Positions 2,525 through 49,991 of a DNA stretch of 49,991 bases are shown here, in pieces (position 1 is the stretch's first letter; every line of letters starts with the position of its first letter). Below the pieces are notes generated by a model, which saw only the letters and a list, made by a program, of their open reading frames with translations, had not been told where the DNA came from and did not search any database. The DNA is taken from assembly GCA_946540105.1 (NCBI GenBank), contig CAMNIA010000002.1, positions 1 through 49,991 of the forward strand, in the 5' to 3' direction. The translations under genes and the position numbers were made by a program. This DNA is from an uncultured Prevotella sp. GTDB lineage: Bacteria; Bacteroidota; Bacteroidia; Bacteroidales; Bacteroidaceae.

Positions 2525-2594
2525 AGGTTTCAGGATTCAGGTTTCAGGTTCAAATCATAAACTTCAAATTTCAAACTTCAAACCTTAAACCTCA
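2525..2594. repeat. Degenerate heptamer arrays between cmk and the PL9 gene (convergent gap)
   Basis: ggtttca ggattca ggtttca ggtt... then aaacttc aaatttc aaacttc aaacctt aaacctc. Confidence 0.93.
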
Positions 2595-21051: not shown

Positions 21052-23952
21052 ATGAAAAAAATGCTTTGCATTTTGCTTGCTGTGCTGCTACTCAGCTCTT
21101 TTAGCAAGTACAAGTTTGAAGAGGTCAAGGATGATCCACTGAAGACGCGTATCTATACATTGAAGAATGGTTTGAAAGTTTACTTGAGTGTCAACGACGA
21201 GAAGCCACGCATACAGACATACATTGTGGTGCGTACGGGTTCGAAGAACGACCCCGCAGAGACGACGGGACTGGCACACTATTTGGAACACCTGATGTTC
21301 AAAGGTACTGATAAGTATGGTGTGACAGACCCGAAAGCCGAAGCCCCCCTGCTTGCCGACATTGAGCAGCGCTACGAGAAATATCGCCAGCTGAAGGACT
21401 CCGATGCACGCCGGAGGGCTTATCATGAGATTGACTCCGTGTCGCAACTGGCGGCACGCTACTTTATTCCCAACGAGTACGACAAGATGATGTCACACAT
21501 CGGTGCCGAGGGTACGAATGCTAACACGTGGCACGACCGTACGTGCTACGTCGAGGACATCCCGTCGAACCAAGTCGAGGCGTGGCTGAAGATAGAAGCC
21601 GACCGCTTCAAGAACATGACCATTCGCGGATTCCATACCGAGCTGGAGGCTGTCTATGAGGAGTATAACATCTATCTGACCGATGACAACGAGAAGATGT
21701 ACAACGCCATGATGACAAAGCTCTTCCCCTCGCACGCCTACGGCACGCAGACCACCATCGGTACACAAGAGCACTTGAAGAATCCCAGCATCACGAACAT
21801 CAAGAACTACTTCAAGAAGTGGTATGTGCCTAACAATACCGCCATCTGTATGGCCGGTGACTTCAACCCCGATGCAGTCATCGCGTTGATTGATAAGTAC
21901 TTTGGCGACTGGCAGCCAGCGTCTGAGGCTGACATCCAACAACCCTCATTCCCTGTGCAGCCTGTGCTGACTGCTGCTGTCGACACTACCGTCGTCGGTC
22001 AGGAGGCAGAGCAGCTGCTATTAGGTTGGCGTTTCGACAAGGCATCATCGCTCCAGTCAGATACCCTGTTGGTAGTAGAATATATGCTGAATAACGGTGT
22101 GGCAGGACTGATTGACCTGGACATCAATCAGCAGATGAAGATGCAACGCGCTGAGGCTTCAACCGAGATGCTGTTGGACTACAGCACCTTCCAACTGGGC
22201 GGAACACCCCGTCAGGGACAGTCGCTCGATGAGGTGCGCAGCCTGCTGTTGGCAGAAGTGGCGAAGTTGAAGAGCGGCGACTTCAGTGATGATCTGTTAC
22301 CATCGGTCATCAACAACCTGAAGCTACGTGAGTTCGAGGCGATGGAACACAATAATTCTCGTACGTCAGCCTTTCTTTCAGCCTTCGTCAATGGCACTCC
22401 ATGGGAGCAGCGCGTCAAGAAGTTCGACCGCGTCAGCGGCATCACGAAACAGCAAATCATTGATTTCGTCAACCGCCATTTCCGTGACAACTACGTCGCA
22501 GTCTATAAACGGCAAGGCACAGATCCCAACCAGAAGAAGATTGACAAGCCCGAGATAACCGCCATACCTACGAACCGCGACGCCGTCAGCCAGTTTGTGC
22601 AGGAGATACAGCAGATGGAGGTAAAGCCCATCGAGCCACGCTTCGTCGACTTCCAGCGCGACTTGACCTTTACAACCGCCGACAATGGTTCCCCCATAGT
22701 CTACGTCCAGAATACGGAAAACGGACGCTTCCAGCTGTACTTCCGCTACGACTTCGGCGAGGACGCTGACATTCGTTACTACTACGCGGCTGACTATTTG
22801 GACTATCTGGGTACCGACTCGCTCAGTGCCGAGCAGGTACGCCAGCAGTTCTACAAGCTGGCATGCCATTATGGTGTGAATGTAGAAGAGCGTACGGTGA
22901 CAGTCTTCTTGTCAGGTCTCGCCAAGAATATGCCTCAGGCACTAACGCTGCTTGACCATCTGATGCACCACGCCAAGGTTGACAAGGCGGCTTATCAGCA
23001 GTATATTGCCGTGCATGACAAAAAACTGACCGACCGGAAGTTCAACCAGCAGACCAACTTCGGGGCTTTAGCGCAGTATGGTCTTTATGGTCCTTATAAC
23101 TCCATGCGTAACCTGATGACCGCGCGTCAGCTAGAAGCAACAGACCCGCAGGTGCTATTAGACCTGCTGAAAGGGTTGGACCAGTACCAGCACTCCATAT
23201 TGTATTATGGTCCGCTGACGACTACCGAATTGGCAACAACTGTCGCCAAAGGTCAACCTTTGGCAAAGACACTGAAACCTGTACCGCAGGGCAGGCACTA
23301 CACCATGCAGCTCACGCCGCAGAACGAGGTCATGATAGCCCCCTACGATGCGAAGAACATCTACATGATGCTAATGCACATCGAAGACCAGCCTTGGCGT
23401 GTCGACGATGCTGCCGTCAAGGCTATCTTCAATGAGTATTACGGTGGCTCGATGGGGAGCGTTGTGTTCCAAGAGATTCGTGAATCACGCGGCTTGGCTT
23501 ATCATGCTAATGCCGTCTTCAGTGACCGAAAATACCCTGACCTACAAGACCAGGCGCTGGTGCTTATCGTCACCCAGAACGACAAGCTGATGGACTGTGT
23601 ACGTCAGTTCCACCACATTCTGGATACTATTCCGCAGAACGAGGGGTCGTTCCAAATAGCCAAAGAGGCTGTCAAGAAGAAAATAGCCAGCAACCGCACT
23701 ACGAAGTCGGCACTTATCAGCGCCTGGCTGTTAGCGCGTAATATGAACATCGACTACGACCTGAACCAGCGCATCTACGAACAACTGCCTGATGTTACGC
23801 TGAAGGACGTGGTGCGCTTCGAACAGGAACATATGGCTCGTAAGCCTTACCGCTACGTCATCTTGGGCGACGAGCGTGAGCTGGACATGAAGTCACTGGA
23901 GCAGATAGCTCCCGTCAAGCGTCTGTCGACTACTGAGATATTCGGATACTAA
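21052..23952 (+). CDS. M16 family zinc metallopeptidase (two-domain)
   Basis: TGLAHYLEHLMFKGTDKYG contains inverted zinc motif HXXEH; downstream ELEAVYEEYN; second inactive-type domain. Confidence 0.93.
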   Translation: MKKMLCILLAVLLLSSFSKYKFEEVKDDPLKTRIYTLKNGLKVYLSVNDEKPRIQTYIVVRTGSKNDPAETTGLAHYLEHLMFKGTDKYGVTDPKAEAPLLADIEQRYEKYRQLKDSDARRRAYHEIDSVSQLAARYFIPNEYDKMMSHIGAEGTNANTWHDRTCYVEDIPSNQVEAWLKIEADRFKNMTIRGFHTELEAVYEEYNIYLTDDNEKMYNAMMTKLFPSHAYGTQTTIGTQEHLKNPSITNIKNYFKKWYVPNNTAICMAGDFNPDAVIALIDKYFGDWQPASEADIQQPSFPVQPVLTAAVDTTVVGQEAEQLLLGWRFDKASSLQSDTLLVVEYMLNNGVAGLIDLDINQQMKMQRAEASTEMLLDYSTFQLGGTPRQGQSLDEVRSLLLAEVAKLKSGDFSDDLLPSVINNLKLREFEAMEHNNSRTSAFLSAFVNGTPWEQRVKKFDRVSGITKQQIIDFVNRHFRDNYVAVYKRQGTDPNQKKIDKPEITAIPTNRDAVSQFVQEIQQMEVKPIEPRFVDFQRDLTFTTADNGSPIVYVQNTENGRFQLYFRYDFGEDADIRYYYAADYLDYLGTDSLSAEQVRQQFYKLACHYGVNVEERTVTVFLSGLAKNMPQALTLLDHLMHHAKVDKAAYQQYIAVHDKKLTDRKFNQQTNFGALAQYGLYGPYNSMRNLMTARQLEATDPQVLLDLLKGLDQYQHSILYYGPLTTTELATTVAKGQPLAKTLKPVPQGRHYTMQLTPQNEVMIAPYDAKNIYMMLMHIEDQPWRVDDAAVKAIFNEYYGGSMGSVVFQEIRESRGLAYHANAVFSDRKYPDLQDQALVLIVTQNDKLMDCVRQFHHILDTIPQNEGSFQIAKEAVKKKIASNRTTKSALISAWLLARNMNIDYDLNQRIYEQLPDVTLKDVVRFEQEHMARKPYRYVILGDERELDMKSLEQIAPVKRLSTTEIFGY

Positions 23953-26830
23953 GCTGGTGCTTCTTACCGCTGTCTATGGTGTATTTTTTCAAAACACCAG
24001 GTCCGCAAGAGCTATTGCCTAGTCCCATCACGGCGCAGTCAATGGAGAGGAAGGTCTTGCCTTCCTCTTCTTTTAGCTCATAGTCGTGGCTCTTGCTCGC
24101 CAGATACTGTGCGGAGTAGGGCAGTGCTGAGAACGAGAAGGCTTGGCTGACGGCTTCGATGCGTAGCTTCTTGCCCTTCTTGGTCTTCAGTTCCACGTAT
24201 GTGCAGTCTTCGTGGTTGCCTGAGTCCTGCGGACGTGGGTAGTGAACGTACTGCTCGCTGACCTTCGATTGCCACAAGCCAATGGGGCACGACACCTTAC
24301 GGTCAGGGTAGTTGTCCCACGGTCCGCGACCATACCACGTCAGCAGTTCGTACTCACGCGGCAGTTCGATGACGATGCCCAAACGTGGCAGTGGGGGCAA
24401 CGTGTCGGGAATCACGAAGGTAAAGGTCAGTTCGTTGCCGTTCTGCTCCATCGTCATTGGGAGTCGCAGGGTGTCCAGTCGGCAGCGTTTCCAGTCTTTT
24501 GCCAACCAGTTGCCGAAGCTTTTGTCGTTGTCAGTTGGTGCACGGAAACACTGCGGTCTGATGGCATCGACGAGGGCTGAAAGGTGGGCGCTGAGTACCT
24601 GTTGCTTCTTCAGCGCCTTGGGCTTGGCAGCCTTGGTCTCGGGGTACTTGTCAGCAATCTGTTGCTCGCTGCTGCCGCCATAGACGGCTTGTACCTCGTA
24701 GTATTTTGGCGTCAGACTGCGGTCGCTCATGATGATGCCATTCATGCAGAAGGCATGCAGATTGGGCTTGTCGCCAAAATCGCCACCATAGAGCACTGGG
24801 GGATTCTTGGCCAATGGTTTATTGTTCATGGTTGAACCTTGAACCTTGGAAGCAGAATCTTGAATCTTGAACCCTGAATCTTGAACTGGAATAATTCCCT
24901 GGTCTACCCAGTCCCATATGAAGCCGCCCAGCAAACGTGGGTTGGCGTTTATCTCGTCCCAATACTCTTTGAAGTTGCCTAAAGCATTACCCATTGAGTG
25001 GGCATACTCGCTGGTCAGCACAGGACGGGGTCCGCCATCGCTGCCCTCCCACGCGCAGTGGTCTCCAGTTCGGTTCGCTATTTCCACCAGTCGTTCCCAG
25101 CGTGCATTCTCGGCACGCTCTTTGTCAGAGCCTTCGGCAATGCCCGGGTTGAGGTATTCCTTCATCACGCGTGGGTAGAAACGCGAGATGACATCCACCG
25201 TATGGGGGTCTGAGGCGGTACGTCCTGAAGCGATATTCACCGACAGCATGCCCTGCGCCCCTTCGTAGTGTACGGGACGGGTGGGGTCAAACTCGTGCAG
25301 CCATGCCGACATTGCCGCATGGTTAGCGCCATATCCGCTCTCGTTGCCCAAACTCCAGAAAATGATGCAGGGGTAGTTCTTATCACGTTCGGCCATACGC
25401 ACCACGCGGTCCATGAAGGCATCGTGCCAGTCGGGTGTCGATGCCAGCGTACCACGCAGACCGTGTGTCTCGCAGTCGGCTTCGTCCATGACGTACATAC
25501 CGATAGAGTCGCACAACTCGTACCAGCGTGGACAGTTGGGATAGTGTGACAGGCGCACCGCATTGATGTTGGCCTGTTTCATCAGTTCCAGGTCACGCTT
25601 CATCACAGCCTCCGTCATTACGCGCGCCCTATAGGGGTCGTGCTCGTGGCGGTTTACACCGCGTATCTTAATGGCCTTGCCATTCACCTTCAGTTGACCG
25701 TCCTCTATGCGGATACTTCGGAAGCCCACTTGCTGTGTCACGCGCTCAACGGTCTTCCCGCTGGTGTCTTTCAGTTCAAGACATAGGCTGTAGAGGTAGG
25801 GGGTTTCTGCGCTCCACAGTCGTGGTTTGTTTACCTTCATCGCCATACGCTCAAATTTCCGGTACCCCCGTTGTGAATACCATTCGTTCATGCGTTTGGC
25901 CTTATGCGCCAGGTCCAGCACCTCGTCGGCAGCAACAGAGTCGCTGGCTAGCTCGTGCGAACCATCCTTAAGTGTTGCCACTAGGCGGTAGCCCTCGCCT
26001 GTCGCTCCGTTATAGACGGCAAACAGCGGGTTGATGGCTAATGTCCATAGGTCGTTGCCTTGTGAGGCACCGTCGGCGGATAGTGTGCGCACAGCAACAT
26101 CCCTGAGCCTTACATCGGGTGTGTGATACATCAGCACGTCACGATGGATGCCGCCAAAACGCCAGAAGTCTTGATCCTCCAGATAGGAGCCGTCGCTATA
26201 CTTATACACTTCGATGGCTATCTTGTTTTCACCCTTCTTAATATATGGGGTCACGTTAAACTCGGACGGTTCCATAGACCCCTGGCTGTAACCAACTTTC
26301 TTGCCGTTTATCCAAACATAGAACGCCGACATCACTCCCTCGAAGCGCAGAAAGGTTTGCCCCGTCAGCCACTCGTTGCCAATGGTGAAAGTCCTTCTGT
26401 ACTGACCTGTCGGGTTGCGTTCCTCGTACGTCGTCCAGTCACTCTTGGGCTCACTCGTCACACGTGGTGGGTCTATCTTAAACGGATAGCCTGCAGAGAC
26501 GTAGATAGGCGTCCCATAGCAATGGCCGCTGGTGTTCACTTCCCAGTTGGCGGGAACCGGAAACACCGTCCATCCGCTGTCATCGAAGTCGGTGCGGTAG
26601 AAGTCCTTCACCCGCAACTCGGGTGTCTTCGTCCAGCGGAATCTCCAGTCGCCATTGAGCAACATCATACGGTCGCCCTTCTGGTTGCCAAAGGGGATGA
26701 AGTATGCGCGTGCCGGCTCACGGTTTACTTCTAACACGTGGTTGTTCTCCCAGTCGTGCTGTTTGCTCTGTGCCGCCATCAGCGTTGCCGTCATGAGCAG
26801 CAGTAAAGAGATTATGTTTCTTCTCATCAT
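23930..26830 (-). CDS. GH2 beta-galactosidase-like enzyme
   Basis: CIIFWSLGNESGYGANH (acid/base), PVLTSEYAHSMGNALGNFKEYWDEI (nucleophile region), FIWDWVDQG, FRAPTDNDKSFGNWL, LLTWYGRGPWDNYPDRK. Confidence 0.92.
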   Translation of the reverse strand: MMRRNIISLLLLMTATLMAAQSKQHDWENNHVLEVNREPARAYFIPFGNQKGDRMMLLNGDWRFRWTKTPELRVKDFYRTDFDDSGWTVFPVPANWEVNTSGHCYGTPIYVSAGYPFKIDPPRVTSEPKSDWTTYEERNPTGQYRRTFTIGNEWLTGQTFLRFEGVMSAFYVWINGKKVGYSQGSMEPSEFNVTPYIKKGENKIAIEVYKYSDGSYLEDQDFWRFGGIHRDVLMYHTPDVRLRDVAVRTLSADGASQGNDLWTLAINPLFAVYNGATGEGYRLVATLKDGSHELASDSVAADEVLDLAHKAKRMNEWYSQRGYRKFERMAMKVNKPRLWSAETPYLYSLCLELKDTSGKTVERVTQQVGFRSIRIEDGQLKVNGKAIKIRGVNRHEHDPYRARVMTEAVMKRDLELMKQANINAVRLSHYPNCPRWYELCDSIGMYVMDEADCETHGLRGTLASTPDWHDAFMDRVVRMAERDKNYPCIIFWSLGNESGYGANHAAMSAWLHEFDPTRPVHYEGAQGMLSVNIASGRTASDPHTVDVISRFYPRVMKEYLNPGIAEGSDKERAENARWERLVEIANRTGDHCAWEGSDGGPRPVLTSEYAHSMGNALGNFKEYWDEINANPRLLGGFIWDWVDQGIIPVQDSGFKIQDSASKVQGSTMNNKPLAKNPPVLYGGDFGDKPNLHAFCMNGIIMSDRSLTPKYYEVQAVYGGSSEQQIADKYPETKAAKPKALKKQQVLSAHLSALVDAIRPQCFRAPTDNDKSFGNWLAKDWKRCRLDTLRLPMTMEQNGNELTFTFVIPDTLPPLPRLGIVIELPREYELLTWYGRGPWDNYPDRKVSCPIGLWQSKVSEQYVHYPRPQDSGNHEDCTYVELKTKKGKKLRIEAVSQAFSFSALPYSAQYLASKSHDYELKEEEGKTFLSIDCAVMGLGNSSCGPGVLKKYTIDSGKKHQLSIRISQ
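24831..24888. repeat. Degenerate 7-nt tandem array (TTGAACC/TTGAATC type) inside the GH2 CDS
   Basis: gttgaaccttgaaccttggaagcagaatcttgaatcttgaaccctgaatcttgaactgg; encodes VQDSGFKIQDSASKVQGST. Confidence 0.8.
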
Positions 26831-26946: not shown

Positions 26947-27012
26947 GGTAGAAAAACGCCGAGTTGCTGGTAGAAAAACGCCGAGTTGCTGGTAGAAAAA
27001 CGCCGAGTTGCT
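26947..27012. repeat. Three perfect tandem copies of a 22-bp unit GGTAGAAAAACGCCGAGTTGCT
   Basis: Identical units at 26947-26968, 26969-26990 and 26991-27012. Confidence 0.97.
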
Positions 27013-27038
27013 GGTCGATAGCGTCCGCCGCACAAATT

Positions 27039-27750: not shown

Positions 27751-30700
27751 CTATTGTATCTCCATTTCTTTGAATTCAACATCGTTGGTATAGATGCGCA
27801 GCGTGTATGTTCCGGCATTGATTTGTGTGCCGGTAGTGGTGGAGAGCATCTTGAACTTGTTCGGAGTGGGTGGAAATGTGACGTTACGATCTACGAGAAC
27901 AGCGCGCTTGGAGTCGGTAATAGTCATGCGCGCCGTGACGGGGCTGCCCGTCGTGTTCTTATAACGGAAGCGCAGGGCATATTCCTGTCCCAGACCTGGT
28001 GTAATGTTGAACGTGCCGTTCTGTTTGGCTGACGGCTGGTAGACGGTGGCAGGACGCGCCTCGGTATCGTTAGGTAGTTCGGCTTTCGGCAATTTGGCTA
28101 TGGTGTCGGTGTCGAGGGCATGCCAGTTGATGTTTGATGTTTGATGTTTGATGTTTGATGTTTGATGTTTCGAGGCAACGGCAATGCCGCAGATGACTGC
28201 CTGTCCTGACTTGACTTCTGGGAACGAGATTCGTAGTTTGCCATCTTTAGCCTGAGCATAGACGACGCGTTTCAGTGAACCGCAAAAGCCAGCCTCTGCC
28301 CATGGGTCGAGGTCATCAACGACAGTTTTGCCATTGACGGCGACATCGAAGATACGCAGTCCTTCGTAGTCGGCTTCCTCGGAAGCCTGTTTCCCATGCC
28401 AGGGCTCAACGAAATAGAGCTCAATGCGGTAAGTCGCCGTGTCAGTGGGTAAACCGCTGACAACGGAGGGGACGGGCAGGTCGTACCACAGGCGATGCCG
28501 ACCGAAACGGAAGAACTGGAATAGTTCGTCGCTCTTGGTTCCACGAATGTCATGACGGATGTGACGCTGAGAGGCTTGAAGGGCATTGACACCTGCAAAG
28601 TCCTGACCCCAGGAATGGCTGTGAATGGTGTCGTCAGCCAGCCACTCCTGTCCGTACTCATCGGTAAAGGCATCACCACCGCAGTTGATGCGATAGAGGT
28701 AGTAGTATCCCTTTGCCCCTTTGACCAAATCGACGTTGCGGTCGGCAGCAGTAAGTTTGAAGTCTGAAGTTTGAGGTTTGAAGTTTGAAGTTTTTTCTTC
28801 CGCTTTTGTTTTTACATATCTCTGACGGTACATATAGTAGGCTGGGGTAGGTTCTTCCCAGGCGGTAACAAGTCCTTTGTAGTTGATGGGACCTATCTTG
28901 TCAATGCGCCGAAGTGCCCCGTCGGGCTGAACGCGTCCAGGATTGTCGTGTGAGTTGAATATCCACTGGAAGTGGCCGCAGACACCAGAGAATTCCGATG
29001 TCTGATGTCTGACGCCTGATGTCTGAGTTTGAAAGGCCTTTTCAGCCAGGCGGGCCTTGGTCTCGAGGAGGCGTGTAAAACTTTCCTCGCTGTATTTGTC
29101 AGCACCGTGCAAGTCAATGGTACGCCAGGCACCATACTCGCCGTTGAGTAGTTGTGAAGGCTCCTTGAGTTCGTTGTCGTAGTTTTCGGCGCTACCCCCA
29201 TAGGTGCCGCTCCAGTTTTGGATGACATTCCAGTCGGTACCTTCTCCCCCATTGCAAGTGGTGATGGCTCGCTGGTCTTTGCATGTGGGGTCGAGTGCGC
29301 GGATGATGTCAGCACACTCTTCGGCAAAAGCCTTGGGCAATACGCTCTCGTTCTGCAAGCCCCAAAGGATGATAGAGGGTGAGTTGCGACGCTCCTTAAT
29401 CCAGCGTACTAAGAGACGCTTGAAATTGTCACGAAATTGAGGTGTGTCATACCAAATATGGGCGGAGAACTGGCTCCAGAAAAGGATGCCCTGCTGATCG
29501 AACAGTTGCTGGTAGAGCAGGTTGTGGGGCTGGTGGGCTTCGCGGAAGGCATTGAAACCGGCATTGGTAATCTGCTTCACACGCGAGCGGATTTGTTCAG
29601 GTGTGAAGGCATGGCTACTACCCAATAGGTGTTCATACTCACATGTGCCATTGATGAAGGTTGGCGTGCCATTTAAGAAGAAACGATTGTCAGTGACTTT
29701 TATGGAGTCATTGCGAGTAGCGGACAGGCGCTTTCGAAGCACAGGCCAAGAGATGCTGCGTATGCCGAACGGCGTGCGCAACTCGTCGGTTGTCTTGCCG
29801 TCACGCTTAATCATCGTAGCAAGCGTATACAGGTAGGGGTCATTGATGCTCCAGCGATGGACGTCAGAAATGGCCTCGGCTTGGAGAAGCGTCTTTGTCT
29901 CGCCAGGTTGTAATACGACAGGCTGAGCATGACGAAACACCTGCTTTCCACTGGCGAGAGAGAACTTGTTGACTAGTTCAATGTGCTGCGGGTTAGACGT
30001 GTAATTCTTGATTTCGGTCTCAATGAACACGCTGTCACAGTTGACGTTGTTCCAGATATGCACACCGAAGGGCTCAATGCGGACGGCATCAGTCTCGATG
30101 AGTGACACGGGACGAAAAATTCCGAAGGGCTGGCTGCCTTCAGAGAAACCCCATTCAGACGAACATCCGCCACAAACCCAGGGTGAGGCGGTCTGCATTG
30201 CAGGATGGTCGACATTGACTGTGAGGGTGTTGAGACCTTGTTGCAAAGCATCGGTAACGTCAAGCGTGAATACAGTACGACCCACGAGTTCCTTGGGATA
30301 GGTAGTGGCGTTAAGCGTAACAGTGGCATAAGTGCCCACACCTTCGAATTGGAGGAAGTAACGTTTGCCCTCTTTCTTGTCGGTCGTAAAGTGCTTGTTA
30401 TATATGGCTGAGCCGTGCAGGTTGCCATGTCGCAACTGGCGGTAGCCATAGTAATCGTCGAAGTTGTGAGGAATGGTGAGAGTTCTCTCTTCGAGAGTGT
30501 GGCGTTGTATTGAGAGTTGAGAGTTGAGAATACGTGCCGTCCAGCCCTCGTTGAGGTTAGTGACAAGGCGGTGCCCTTTGCGCTCAGGCGCAGGGAAGGA
30601 AACGGAAGAGCGCCCCATAGGCACGCTGGTAGCTACGGCAATGCCCCGCTGTTGGTCGTTGTTGACGGCACAGTAGAAATGGTAGACAACCCCGTCGTGC

Positions 30701-31758
30701 TTTACAACATAGCTTTTATGTGCAAACAATTCATCATAGGGCTTGGAGGGGATGATTAGGTCTTCGCCCTCCCAGTCTTGCCAATGGATGAGGTCTCGGC
30801 TGACGGCGAATGTGTTATAAGCATTGTACTTGCGTGTGGGGTTGAAAGCTGAGAAGTAGAACATCACCCAGTAGTCGTTCATTCTTACAATCTGTGCATC
30901 GCCGGTAATGGTGCCATCGCTGTCGTGGGCAAAGACAGGATTGCCGCTATAGCGTTTCCATTTTTTCAAATTGTTGCTCACAGCGATGCCGATGCGTTCG
31001 CCTTTGGGGTGGGTGGCGTCTTTGCCTCCAGCGTTATAAAACATAAGGAATCGATAGTTGCGCAGTTCAGCAGGTAGCAGGTGTTTCGCCTGTTCGCTCC
31101 TCATGTCGTAGATGGTACTTTTATACTGTGTCAGTTGTTCCCACCACTGTGCATCCTTGTCATCGTAGCTCATAAGTGGTGTGGATTGCGGATTCCACTG
31201 GTGTGCTTGGGAGATGTCGCCATCGGTAGAGGCGATGCCGATACTTAGCGGCGCATTGACAGCCTCATAACCAGTACCAGGTCCGCCAATGTATGTCAGA
31301 TAGTGACGCCCCTTATATGCCCCCATCTGATAGCTGCCTCCCCATTCGTAGTCGATGAGGGCAGGGAAACCTCCGCGTTGGTTCTGGTCCCACAACTTGA
31401 GGTCGTCGGCAGGAAAAGCCAGAATGCGTCCAAGCGTCTGCCAATGCAGCAAGTCGTCGCTCTTGGCAAGCCACGTCTCATAGCCTCTGCCGTCGCGTCC
31501 GTCTTTACCATTGTAGCAGACATAGGTCATATACCAGACATTGCCCTCACGGAAGACGCTAGGGCAGTCTATCTTGTGATAGTTGTCCGTAGGCGCAATA
31601 ACCATACCATATTTGTATGGCGTGCGCACTTCGTGGTAAATGCGCTGCATGACGTCATCGCTGATGTTATGAGCGGATAAAGGTAAAAAGGCGAACAGGT
31701 AAAAAAGTAAAATACTCATCACCTTGCATCCGTTTCTATCGTTATTCATCTGTTTCAT
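27751..31758 (-). CDS. Multidomain secreted glycoside hydrolase: N-terminal GH43-like propeller, GH2, malectin-like domain
   Basis: N-terminus [22 protein letters not shown]...[16 protein letters not shown]2 [14 protein letters not shown] and LLNGEYGAW; malectin-like [22 protein letters not shown]...[11 protein letters not shown]...[17 protein letters not shown]. Confidence 0.8.
28127..28168. repeat. Six perfect copies of heptamer TTGATGT inside the GH43/GH2/malectin CDS
   Basis: ttgatgt x6 (42 nt); encodes [14 protein letters not shown] on the minus strand. Confidence 0.97.
28754..28794. repeat. Degenerate heptamer array (GAAGTTT type) inside the same CDS
   Basis: agtttgaagtctgaagtttgaggtttgaagtttgaagtttt; encodes [14 protein letters not shown]. 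Confidence 0.9.
28997..29033. repeat. Degenerate heptamer array (GATGTCT type) inside the same CDS
   Basis: gatgtctgatgtctgacgcctgatgtctgagtttgaa; encodes [13 protein letters not shown]. Confidence 0.9.
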
Positions 31759-31775
31759 AAACTTTAACCCTATTC

Positions 31776-31846
31776 ACTGTTTTACTTTCTTGCCCCTTTT
31801 TACTTTTTTACCTTTTTACCTTTTTACTTTTTTACCTTTTTACCTT
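31776..31846. repeat. TTTTTACC-type 7-8-nt periodic array between two glycoside hydrolase genes
   Basis: cccctttttacttttttacctttttacctttttacttttttacctttttaccttt. Confidence 0.95.
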
Positions 31847-34509
31847 TGAAAGAGCCAGTCAACCTCCGATGATGGACCGTTGAGTCCACACTCACGTGGT
31901 GTGATGGTGCTATTGGTGAAGCCTGCCACCATAAGGATGCCTTTAGGAAGGCGTAACGTGTGATGTCCGGCCGGCAGGCTGTATTGGTGAATGTTCACTT
32001 TGGGCATCTGTTCAATGCTGATGGCATTGGTAAGGATAGGTTCTGCCTGTCCGTATTCATTGCCTGTAGCGTCAATCTCCAGCTTGGGTGCTTTTGCCCA
32101 CTTGTGGTCGTCGTCCTTGAAGAGACCCACCAACACCTTGACGGGTTCATCGCTCTCGAACTCGATAGTAGTACCCACAATGCGGGTGGTGTCGCGGTTT
32201 AATACCAACGCCTGCAAATTAGTCAGCTCAGGGGCTAATGAGTCAATCTTGGTATCCTCGCGCTTCTCAAACACAACAGCCCCTTTCTTGAGCGGAACGG
32301 TAGCTATCGGCGAGAGGAGTTTGACTTTAGCAGCGTTAGCAGGCAGAATACTTATGCTCGACTGTGTCTTGGGGTGCTTCAGTTTTTCGATATTCTCTTT
32401 AAAGGCATCGAGCTCAGCCTGATAAACGGTGGCAAGTTCAGACCACGTCTTCATCTTGCCATTGTCGCCACCAACTGGAATGCGGCGCTGAGCCGTCTGC
32501 ATGGAGTTGGCATAGAGGTACCAGTCGTCAGTCATCCGGCTCAGGTCATACCAGATGCTTTGACACTGCTCCAGCCAGACGACAGCTGTTTCGAGATGGC
32601 TGATATCCTTCGTCCATTTGTAGCGCAGAACTTCGGCGGCAGCACGAACCTTCAGTTGGAAGGCCTTGGCAAAGGTTGCATAACAGAGAACGTCGTTCCA
32701 CACCCGCTGATATTCATCGGCATGACGTGTCGGTTTAGCAGTGATAGCTCCCATCTCCACCAAAGCACGGTCGCCGTGATTGACGCATTGATCCACGATG
32801 TCAAAAGGCAGTTCGCCCTTATGCGGTTGTCCCTTATACTCTTTCTCAATATATTCGATGAGCTTCTCACCCTCAGGTCCACAGCTTTCATAGAATCCAG
32901 GGTATATGGTGTACTTATAGGGGTTGACCAGTTCGCCCATCGTCATGCCGAGGAGCAGCGTCTGTCGGTTGCCCTCGGTTATGCCGAATCGGCGCAACAG
33001 TTTCGGAGCTATCTCGCCAGTTTCGTCGTAAGCGTTGAGCAGGTGGCCGGCACTGACGGTGTCAATGCCATAGTAGTCAGCAAGGATGCGTTTCCAATAC
33101 GAAGACTCGACGGACGCTGCACACCCGCTTTCTGTCATAGCACGGTCGCTGTTCCAAGCGTAGCGTCCCCATGCCTGATACCACATCCAGTCACGGTCAA
33201 GTTGCTTCAGACGCTGACCGTTGGGAAGCTTGTCGGCGGTATATGGCCAGTCCCAATACGAAGCCTGCGGATACAAGTGCAGACCTTTAGAATGGTGGGC
33301 TCGGTGCATGGCCTGAACGGCCTTCTGGGTAAAGGCAGGAGAAGACCAGCGCCAGGGTTCCAGATTAGCCAAAATATGAACATTGTCTATATGAACAGGA
33401 GCGGCAGCGGCCAGCTGACGGTGTGTCTCACCCCAGGGACCTCCAGGTTCGTAAGTCGTCAGACTCTCGCCAGTATATTTAGACATGGTGTATATGTTGG
33501 GATAGAGGGGCAATGATTCCTTGAGGACGAGCGGTCCGTCGGTGTCATGAGAACGGAGTACAACAGGGGGGATATCCTTTCTTCCACTCGCCTTTAAACC
33601 GTCTTTAATGCCAGGAATAATCGTTTCCTTCATCCATGTCACATCGTCCTCGATGGTCGCCATAGCTTCGCCTAAGCAAACAAGCAGCCCCACATTGGGG
33701 TAGTTCTCTATGAAAGCGGCTATACTCTTACGTGTGTAATCGCTTATCAGTGGCGTGATAGGGCGATGACGGTCCTGGGTCTTCAGTCCGTAGTGGTCGG
33801 CGAAAGGCTTGCTAAGGATGATGTTGTAAAACATCTGGATAACCCATATGCCGCGTTTGTCGGCCTCGCGGGTTAAGAAAGAGAACATATCGACATTTTT
33901 CTTAAAAGTCGCATCATCAACTTCCAATGCAAAGGGATAGTCCTTTAGTTTTACTAGCGATGCAAAGGGATGCCCATTCCACAAATAAAGCGAGTTCATT
34001 TTGTTATCGACCATCATGTCGAGATACTTCACCCACTCGGCCTTGTCATAGAACCAAGGAAAGTTCTCGGGGGTGTATGGGTATTCATAAACAGCATGCC
34101 CAGGAAGATATACCGTCTTCTGCAGTCCGATGCACGTGCCGCGCATCACCATCTGAGGAGCTTCCGTGCAAGACTGGATGTCTAAAGACCCTGCAAATTT
34201 TATGCGTTCAGCTAATTCCACACAGCCATAGATGACGCCTTTGCTGTCGTTACCTTTTACGGTCAGTCCATTTTTATCTTTCATAATGGAATATCCTTCT
34301 GCAGGACCTTTTCCTGACGCGGATAACGTGATTTTAGTTCCCTTTTTTGTAGAGACCTCGTAGCCTAAAGCCGTCAGTTTCTTTTGAAGGTATTCTGCGG
34401 CATACTTCTCACGGTTTGAAGCTTTTTTATTCGTCACAATATTCACCTGCTGTGCCATCAATATGGTGCAGAGACAGGAAAGTACAAGTGTGATAAGTAA
34501 CTTCTTCAT
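31840..34509 (-). CDS. Secreted glycoside hydrolase-like protein with GH67N/GH20b-like N-terminal domain; catalytic family uncertain
   Basis: NKKASNREKYAAEYLQKKLTALGYEV...GYSIMKDKNGLTVKGNDSKGVIYGCVELAERI resembles GH67N/GH20b domains; TIM-barrel-like body; signal peptide MKKLLITLVLSCLCTILMAQ. Confidence 0.6.
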   Translation of the reverse strand: MKKLLITLVLSCLCTILMAQQVNIVTNKKASNREKYAAEYLQKKLTALGYEVSTKKGTKITLSASGKGPAEGYSIMKDKNGLTVKGNDSKGVIYGCVELAERIKFAGSLDIQSCTEAPQMVMRGTCIGLQKTVYLPGHAVYEYPYTPENFPWFYDKAEWVKYLDMMVDNKMNSLYLWNGHPFASLVKLKDYPFALEVDDATFKKNVDMFSFLTREADKRGIWVIQMFYNIILSKPFADHYGLKTQDRHRPITPLISDYTRKSIAAFIENYPNVGLLVCLGEAMATIEDDVTWMKETIIPGIKDGLKASGRKDIPPVVLRSHDTDGPLVLKESLPLYPNIYTMSKYTGESLTTYEPGGPWGETHRQLAAAAPVHIDNVHILANLEPWRWSSPAFTQKAVQAMHRAHHSKGLHLYPQASYWDWPYTADKLPNGQRLKQLDRDWMWYQAWGRYAWNSDRAMTESGCAASVESSYWKRILADYYGIDTVSAGHLLNAYDETGEIAPKLLRRFGITEGNRQTLLLGMTMGELVNPYKYTIYPGFYESCGPEGEKLIEYIEKEYKGQPHKGELPFDIVDQCVNHGDRALVEMGAITAKPTRHADEYQRVWNDVLCYATFAKAFQLKVRAAAEVLRYKWTKDISHLETAVVWLEQCQSIWYDLSRMTDDWYLYANSMQTAQRRIPVGGDNGKMKTWSELATVYQAELDAFKENIEKLKHPKTQSSISILPANAAKVKLLSPIATVPLKKGAVVFEKREDTKIDSLAPELTNLQALVLNRDTTRIVGTTIEFESDEPVKVLVGLFKDDDHKWAKAPKLEIDATGNEYGQAEPILTNAISIEQMPKVNIHQYSLPAGHHTLRLPKGILMVAGFTNSTITPRECGLNGPSSEVDWLFQR

Positions 34510-45950: not shown

Positions 45951-46715
45951 ATGATTGAAGTAAGAAATCTCTGTAAAAACTTTGACGGCATCAAAGTACT
46001 GAAAGATATCAGCACCACCTTTCAAGATGGTAAGACCAACTTGATTATTGGTCAGTCAGGCTCGGGCAAGACGGTGCTTATGAAGAACCTGGTAGGACTC
46101 TTCGAACCCACCAGTGGACAGATACTCTACGATGGGCGCGACTTCGTGGGAATGTCGAAACAAGAGAAGGTACACATGCGCCGCGAGATGGGCATGATAT
46201 TCCAGTCGGCTGCCCTCTTCGACTCGCTGACCGTCTTGGAGAATGTAATGTTTCCACTCGACATGTTCTCGTCAATGACACTGCGTGAGCGCACTCGCCG
46301 TGCCAAGGAGTGTCTTGAACGCGTCAACTTAATAGGTGCCGATGAGAAGTATCCTGGCGAGATAAGTGGCGGTATGCAGAAGCGTGTCGCCATAGCCAGA
46401 GCCATATCGCTGAATCCGAAGTACCTGTTCTGCGACGAACCTAACAGCGGACTAGACCCCAAGACGTCGTTGGTTATTGACGACCTGTTGCACAGCATTA
46501 CACGGGAGTTCCAGATGACCACCATCATCAATACCCACGACATGAACTCCGTGATGGGCATTGGTGAGAACATCATTTTTATCTATGAGGGTCACAAAGA
46601 GTGGCAGGGCGAGAGCAGTCAGATTATGAATTCAACGAATAAGCGGCTCACAGATTTCATCTTTGCCAGTGACCTGCTGAAGGAGATGCGTCAAGCCGTT
46701 ACCCACCAGCACTAA
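45951..46715 (+). CDS. mlaF: MlaF-like ABC transporter ATP-binding protein
   Basis: LIIGQSGSGKTVLMKNLVGLFEPTSGQILYDG...EISGGMQKRVAIARAISLNPKYLFCDEPNSGLDPKTSLVID. Confidence 0.9.
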   Translation: MIEVRNLCKNFDGIKVLKDISTTFQDGKTNLIIGQSGSGKTVLMKNLVGLFEPTSGQILYDGRDFVGMSKQEKVHMRREMGMIFQSAALFDSLTVLENVMFPLDMFSSMTLRERTRRAKECLERVNLIGADEKYPGEISGGMQKRVAIARAISLNPKYLFCDEPNSGLDPKTSLVIDDLLHSITREFQMTTIINTHDMNSVMGIGENIIFIYEGHKEWQGESSQIMNSTNKRLTDFIFASDLLKEMRQAVTHQH

Positions 46716-46763
46716 CCTCTCACCTCAAACTTCTCACCTCAAACTTCTTACCTCTTACCTCTA
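46714..46763. repeat. Degenerate heptamer array (CCTCTCA/CCTCAAA type) between mlaF and dnaG
   Basis: cctctcacctcaaacttctcacctcaaacttcttacctcttacctctaa; 7-nt period. Confidence 0.93.
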
Positions 46764-46767
46764 AATA

Positions 46768-48735: not shown

Positions 48736-49991
48736 ATGCACGCCCTGCTTTACATACTCAGCATCATACTCACAGCGGTAGCCATCGTCCACGTCGTGAT
48801 GGACAACCGTCAGCCCGCCAAGACCATGGCGTGGGTGTTGGTGCTCATCTTTGTACCTGTAGTGGGTGTCGTCTTCTACATCTTCTTCGGCGTTAACCAC
48901 CGGCGTGAGCGTCTCGTCAACCAGCGCTCCGTCGACCAATTGTCAAAGCGCTCCATGCTTGGCTTCGTCGAACAGTCTGACCTTCACGTCCCTGAGCGTT
49001 ACCGTCAGATGGTCGACCTCTTCGTTAACCAGAACCTCTCACTGCCCTTCAAAGTTCACCAGCTTGACATCATGACCGATGGCTACGCCTTCATTTCCCA
49101 GTTGCTGGTTGACATTGCCAGGGCACGCCATCACATCCACATCGACATGTACATCTTCGAAGACGACGCCTTGGGACGTCTTTTGGCTGATGCGCTTATC
49201 GACAAAGCGCAGCGTGGTGTCGAGGTCCGTATCGTCTACGATGACGTAGGTTGCTGGGATGTCAGCCGTCGCTTCATAGAACACTTGCGAAGTGGAGGCA
49301 TCGAGATAGCCCCCTTCCTGCCCGTACGCTTCCCATCCTTTACCAGCAAGGCAAACTACCGCAACCATCGTAAACTCATCATCATTGATGGTGCTGTGGG
49401 CTATGTCGGCGGCATGAATATCGCTTTGCGCTATGTCAAAGGACGAAGCCGTCAGCCTTGGCGCGACACCATGCTGCGCCTCACTGGTGGCATAGTGTAT
49501 GGTCTGCAACGCGCATTTCTTGTCGACTGGTACTTTGTCGACCGAACCCTCATCACCGACCGCAAATACTATCCCTCACCTCTCACCTCTCACCTCTCAA
49601 ACTCCCTCGCTCAGCTTGTCACCAGTGGACCAATGGCCAGCTATCCCGAAATCATGCAAGGCTATGTTCGCGCCATCAACGATGCTCGCAAATACGTCTA
49701 TATAGAGACACCCTATTTCCTGCCCAACGAACCCGTACTCTTTGCCCTGAAGACGGCAGCCATGTCGGGTGTCGATGTTTGCATCATCTGTCCTTTGCGC
49801 TCTGATGCCCGCTTCACCGCATGGGCCGGTCGCAGCTATCTTCGTGAGCTCAGCGAGGCCGGCGCTCGCATCTACCTTTACAAGACCGGCTTTCTACACT
49901 CTAAAATGATGATTGTCGACGATGCTCTCGCCACCTGTGGCTCCAGCAATGTCGACTTCCGCTCCTTCGAGAATAATTTCGAATCCAATGT
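48736..49991 (+). CDS. cls: Cardiolipin synthase (PLD family), truncated by the window end
   Basis: Absent from the ORF track because no stop lies in the window. Own translation: MHALLYILSIILTAVAIVHVVMDNRQPAKTMAWVLVLIFVPVVGVVFYIFFG...; HxK motifs NYRNHRKLIIIDGAVGYVGGMNIA and FLHSKMMIVDDALATCGSSNVDFRSFENNFE. Confidence 0.93.
   Translation, partial: MHALLYILSIILTAVAIVHVVMDNRQPAKTMAWVLVLIFVPVVGVVFYIFFGVNHRRERLVNQRSVDQLSKRSMLGFVEQSDLHVPERYRQMVDLFVNQNLSLPFKVHQLDIMTDGYAFISQLLVDIARARHHIHIDMYIFEDDALGRLLADALIDKAQRGVEVRIVYDDVGCWDVSRRFIEHLRSGGIEIAPFLPVRFPSFTSKANYRNHRKLIIIDGAVGYVGGMNIALRYVKGRSRQPWRDTMLRLTGGIVYGLQRAFLVDWYFVDRTLITDRKYYPSPLTSHLSNSLAQLVTSGPMASYPEIMQGYVRAINDARKYVYIETPYFLPNEPVLFALKTAAMSGVDVCIICPLRSDARFTAWAGRSYLRELSEAGARIYLYKTGFLHSKMMIVDDALATCGSSNVDFRSFENNFESN
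49574..49606. repeat. Heptamer array (CTCACCT) inside cls
   Basis: cctcacctctcacctctcacctctcaaactcc; in-frame peptide SPLTSHLSNS. Confidence 0.93.

Follow-up and report, generated by a model that had tools for sequence, protein, structure and literature searches.

Tandem repeats with units of 7–8 nt are thought to be largely kept out of genes, since they break the reading frame. The locus considered here raises the question of how four arrays of 7-nt units came to reside in the frame of a single enzyme gene. The window analyzed, i.e., the whole stretch of 49,991 nt, is an entire contig (C2) of a draft genome of an uncultured Prevotella sp. (1.38 Mb, 56% complete, 111 contigs), whose closest named relatives are Prevotella assemblies from the rumen and other parts of the ruminant foregut. 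The evidence presented below suggests that, in this lineage, new protein segments have arisen again and again from 7–8-nt units.

The Enzyme and Its Domains

The gene is read without interruption on the minus strand and encodes a protein of 1335 amino acids (aa), in which Pfam detects GH2 and malectin domains (Table 1). The residues 21–394 (374 residues) match the PDB entries 5mt2/5mui (E 4e-169), which we take to represent the GH137 domain of BT0996, and aa 1238–1324 match the entry 7zvo (E 5.8e-20), presumably the C-terminal CBM of the same protein. The N-terminal domain, initially described as GH43-like, is hence reassigned to GH137. BT0996 of Bacteroides thetaiotaomicron combines GH137 and GH2 with three CBMs and operates at an early step of rhamnogalacturonan-II breakdown (PMC9843283). 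Judging from these matches, the 1335-aa protein is a BT0996-like, predicted pectin-degrading enzyme arranged as GH137–GH2–malectin–CBM. It has in common with BT0996 the domain order, the GH137 N-terminal domain, GH2, the malectin-like CBM, and the C-terminal CBM; unlike BT0996, it bears repeat-derived segments at its joints. A close orthologue was found in 133 of the 399 sampled genomes of the genus (about one-third).

Table 1. Coordinates of the features in the window (positions in nt; percentages are repeat matches).
Feature	Position	Strand	Location or basis
GH137–GH2–malectin–CBM enzyme, 1335 aa, secreted, BT0996-like (predicted)	27751..31758	−	ORF, Pfam, PDB matches
(AAACATC)6.3, 100%	28127..28170	−	aa 1197–1210, malectin to C-terminal CBM linker
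(AAACTTC)5.9, 88%	28753..28793	−	aa 989–1002, GH2 barrel to malectin linker
(TCAGACA)4.3, 82%	28997..29026	−	within aa 909–921, loop within GH2 barrel region
(AACTCTC)2.9, 100%	30510..30529	−	aa 409–418, GH137/GH2 junction
Degenerate TTTTACCT octamer array, 73%	31678..31713	−	signal-peptide core, aa 16–27
(AAAAAGGT)n upstream octamer array	31795..31847	−	37 nt before start codon; complementary to signal-peptide array
Heptamer array, 74%, peptide QDSGFKIQDSASKVQGS	24832..24886	−	neighbouring GH2 beta-galactosidase-like gene (23930–26830)
(CTCACCT)3.6, peptide PSPLTSHLS	49575..49599	+	inside phospholipase-D-family gene
Heptamer array, CTAACCT-type	46712..46764	.	intergenic
Heptamer arrays, AGGTTTC and AAACTTC types	2525..2594	.	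intergenic

Heptamer Arrays within One Reading Frame

The initial annotation had noticed four in-frame heptamer arrays in this gene, and Tandem Repeats Finder (TRF) together with translation bears this out: all four have a period of 7, and their peptides (14, 14, 13, and 10 aa) are translated within one open frame. The coordinates given at that time agree within a few bases, save that the first array, believed to be exactly 42 nt long, spans 44 nt. Their placement at domain joints and in a loop of the GH2 region also holds, with the correction that the array at aa 1197–1210 lies between the malectin domain and the C-terminal CBM and not at the C-terminus. A chance origin is ruled out: 500 codon shuffles of the gene yielded no period-7 arrays at the same threshold. 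Of the 21 period-7 arrays located within ORFs in 778 kb of the source genome, four belong to this gene, and three of its four unit classes are also seen in arrays between genes of that genome (AAACATC at C5:8108, AAACTTC at C11:4829, and ACATCAG at C1:43773).

In the AlphaFold2 model of residues 385–1335 (mean pLDDT 76), the array segments are mostly coil or low-confidence. The arrays at aa 909–921 and 989–1002 fall largely in stretches with pLDDT below 50, that at aa 1197–1210 forms a coil with block means of 57–73, and that at aa 409–418 ends a strand leading into a low-confidence stretch.

The peptides encoded by the arrays look alike, as had been pointed out, because three of the units differ by only 1–2 bases and a period of 7 passes through all codon phases. 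Since neither 7 nor 8 is divisible by three, an array of such units reads all codon phases and yields one cyclic peptide whatever the frame: AAACATC is translated to KHQTSNI, and TTTTACCT to FYLFTFLP, in every frame. A stop-free unit is, therefore, open in every frame, so repeats of this length can supply protein segments. The complements of both units have a stop in every frame; hence, in-gene arrays sit in the stop-poor orientation. Among 63 consensus units, a stop occurs in nine on the sense strand vs. 47 on the antisense strand.

Recurrence of Arrays among Orthologues

In 116 orthologues, a set filtered for long ORFs, TRF detected 56 arrays of period 7 and seven of period 8, where codon shuffles lead one to expect 0.2 of each. 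The arrays form nine clusters, i.e., in the signal peptide and near residues 218, 294, 410, 681, 911, 990, 1200, and 1243. When length-variable alignment columns were defined solely from the 75 orthologues free of 7/8-nt arrays, 46 of the 50 arrays located beyond the first 40 residues were centred on or beside such a column (expected 9.5). The array segments are missing from otherwise colinear orthologues; the alignment did not show the residues concerned as conserved core in distant homologues, and their being part of a conserved domain core was rejected. Most orthologues have six residues (AESxxD) at the site of aa 909–921, where the present enzyme has twenty (a difference of about 14 aa). 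Even the nearest relatives, L123 (83% identity) and L005 (80%), are devoid of all four arrays, whose presence is lineage-restricted. At aa 1197–1210, the array substitutes for a linker of roughly equal length without lengthening the protein, so the word “insertion” is not literal everywhere.

The same joints have been refilled repeatedly with different units. The last linker, near aa 1200, contains nine different units across species, implying at least 11 Fitch changes; the joint at aa 1243 has eight units and nine changes, and that at aa 990 has six units and five changes (gene transfer between species is not taken into account in these numbers). Arrays in the flanking DNA are commoner in those orthologues that bear arrays inside the gene (odds ratio 4.7, Fisher p = 6e-4). 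The proposal that intergenic repeat sequence is accepted as linker peptide fits all of these comparisons: the 46 of 50 arrays at length-variable joints, the units shared with intergenic sites, and the association with the flanks.

One could suppose that the peptide itself is the object of selection, the QTS-rich segments being functional flexible linkers or modification sites whose repetition is favoured. Their location at domain joints is in line with this supposition, as is the finding that arrays of 9, 24, 27, or 30 nt encoding hydrophilic or Pro-rich linkers occupy the same joints in orthologues from other species; those of 9, 24, and 27 nt could reflect selection for repetitive linkers. 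At the same time, 7-nt units outnumber the codon multiples in the orthologues, and the array peptides at one and the same site are wholly different between species. They also lack the D(S/T)x motif, which is the motif of O-glycosylation in Bacteroides, and a loop of an unrelated enzyme, MiaA, behaves alike (see below). We consider selection for the peptide rather unlikely. The dominance of period 7, which is no codon multiple, indicates that the period reflects a process operating at the DNA level.

Another conceivable function is phase variation. A gain or loss of a single unit in a 7-nt array necessarily shifts the downstream frame, so the arrays might be contingency switches turning the enzyme off in a part of the population; the array at 28127–28170, a perfect 6.3-copy repeat, is of the kind expected to be mutable. 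The orthologues examined stay in frame across their arrays, which is a weak counterargument in a set filtered for long ORFs. Furthermore, all but the array at 28127–28170 are either decayed (82–88% matches) or short (fewer than three copies). In the one broken copy examined, the orthologue from genome G250, the break turned out to fall in conserved barrel sequence, outside the arrays. On balance, switching of this kind is judged unlikely, slightly more so than selection for the peptide.

An artefact of the fragmentary metagenome assembly, suggested by the completeness and contig number of the source genome, is highly improbable. The four arrays hold one frame, and similar arrays are present in orthologues from many assemblies, including that of the isolate Prevotella sp. 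tc2-28 (L117); moreover, the octamer-derived signal peptides described below occur in the few-contig genomes G132 and G146.

Arrays across the Genome and in Other Genes

In the 778 kb of the source genome, strict 7-nt arrays number 480 per Mb between ORFs vs. 15 inside them (a 32-fold difference), and 7 and 8 are the dominant repeat periods between genes. A search of 400 kb of the related genome G024 for intergenic 7-nt arrays revealed none. Period-22 arrays are also found repeatedly between genes of the source genome; e.g., a perfect 22-bp tandem repeat (3.1 copies) lies at 26947–27015, between the LacZ-like and rubrerythrin-like genes.

Retention of arrays in frame is not peculiar to the BT0996-like enzyme: it was also observed in genes coding for LacZ-like GH2, GH3, metallophosphoesterase, phospholipase-D-family, and MiaA proteins. 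In the housekeeping enzyme MiaA (which we take to be such from recognition of its sequence), one loop contains heptamer arrays in 6 of the 30 orthologues, each from its own species (L270, L272, L276, L277, L278, and L288), the others mostly having a shorter loop. The units in this loop are all different (CCTCCCA, CCATCAC, ACCATGA, ATTAAAC, ATTAAAG, and GAGGTGC).

Among the 38 arrays between co-directional genes of the source genome, stops are present in all three frames of the sense strand in 21 and of the antisense strand in nine. The difference is suggestive; with no more than 21 of the 38 arrays showing such stops, the idea that intergenic arrays serve as all-frame stop insulators was rejected.

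Octamers, Signal Peptides, and Start Codons

The enzyme contains a fifth array, with a period of 8 and weaker than the four heptamer arrays, in its signal peptide; the signal peptides of the orthologues are either heptamer-derived (SLCITHYALCI) or ordinary. A 20-nt pattern of the octamer was encountered in 63 of 200 genomes of the genus (the reversed control gave one match) and in just one of the 29 other sampled genera of the family. When about 31 octamer arrays were read in their context, some 17–20 lay in the sense orientation where an ORF would have its signal peptide; most of these encode LPFYLFTFLP, with a cleavage-like or lipobox-like motif after it. Most of the remaining arrays had the opposite orientation and preceded a gene start by a short distance.

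The families involved comprise S41 peptidase, SPOR, solute-binding, DUF4369, GH97, esterase, SusD, M16 peptidase, FKBP, and FGE-sulfatase proteins. As far as position and composition tell, (TTTTACCT)n codes for the putative core of the signal peptide in secreted proteins of ten or more unrelated families, found in many Prevotella species (sequences L234, L236, L238, L239, L241–L244, L247, L251, L252, L254–L256, and L258). Several of these signal peptides also agree in the residues next to the core (VKW-F/I-LPFYLF), a hint that a cassette may have been dispersed. A separate observation concerns the orthologues L006 and L172: their core is 97% identical, and their signal peptides, of which one is heptamer-derived, differ completely, suggesting that species have exchanged the 5′ end.

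In many genes with octamer signal peptides, a complementary array directly precedes the start codon. For the enzyme, the predicted pairing of the upstream and signal-peptide arrays has z = −3.1 relative to shuffled upstream sequence. Strong pairing was predicted for about half of the 14 genes tested, the enzyme included, and was absent in the rest, so a start-codon hairpin is not a universal companion of octamer signal peptides. It is conceivable, albeit doubtful, that TTTTACCT/AGGTAAAA is a two-faced unit, serving in one orientation as an A-rich leader ahead of the start codon and in the other as the hydrophobic core of a signal peptide (LPFYLFTFLPL). If so, both orientations would flank the start codon in many genes, enabling the mRNA to fold into a hairpin; signal peptides and loops would be recycled from microsatellites, and the array length might tune the translation of secreted proteins.

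A Putative Route from Repeat to Protein Segment

We consider it likely that the arrays stem from a lineage-specific tendency to make 7/8-nt repeats, a minority of which is kept in genes at permissive sites. According to this scheme, the lineage of rumen Prevotella would have a genome-wide tendency to form and expand 7- and 8-nt tandem arrays, the majority of which would settle between genes. An array landing in a domain linker, a surface loop, or a signal-peptide core with the frame kept would be tolerated by selection and join the protein, since such permissive places may accept any stop-free peptide of low complexity. In the BT0996-like enzyme, retention would have occurred at four joints in this lineage. 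Slippage or template switching might be the source of the arrays, and the loops that they encode would be nearly neutral.

Any implication that sequence was physically copied from intergenic sites goes further than the evidence, as local slippage is equally compatible with it. Copying from other arrays, and not slippage on the spot, could account for a unit repertoire that is limited and related across loci and species, and the sharing of units speaks in its favour; their diversity, in turn, speaks for an origin in place.

Comparison with Known Systems

In the open-licence papers searched, neither heptamer nor octamer repeats were found to be reported as loops or signal peptides of Prevotella proteins, nor was the combination described here, nor the use of octamer microsatellites as signal peptides. 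The orthologues form a natural series with repeated refilling of one and the same loop, so that one can test directly what added sequence costs an enzyme and how microsatellites give rise to signal peptides.

Heptanucleotides are the most abundant class of long simple sequence repeats in bacteria, according to the summary given in PMC4679880, and they are known as a mainly intergenic class (PMC4679880 and PMC4692102), e.g., for GGGAATC in Xanthomonas and Nostoc (PMC4692102) and TAACTGA in Beggiatoaceae (PMC4679880). In the literature, repeats inside genes are reported mainly as codon multiples. Like the known heptanucleotide repeats, the 7-nt units of Prevotella are distributed genome-wide, far above chance, mostly between genes, and patchily in the phylogeny; unlike them, they occur as many units per genome, together with a companion class of 8 nt and with recurrent in-gene retention at homologous loops.

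In-frame repetitive DNA within genes is also represented by the Rickettsia palindromic elements, dispersed palindromic sequences of about 150 bp (reviewed in PMC10969869). The arrays resemble these elements in that they lie in frame within unrelated genes (those of the enzyme, MiaA, GH3, PLD, metallophosphoesterase, and LacZ-like proteins) and add extra peptide. An identity with them is nevertheless rejected: in contrast to dispersed palindromes of ca. 100–150 bp, the Prevotella arrays are tandem repeats of 20–60 nt in which no palindrome or mobile-element feature was seen.
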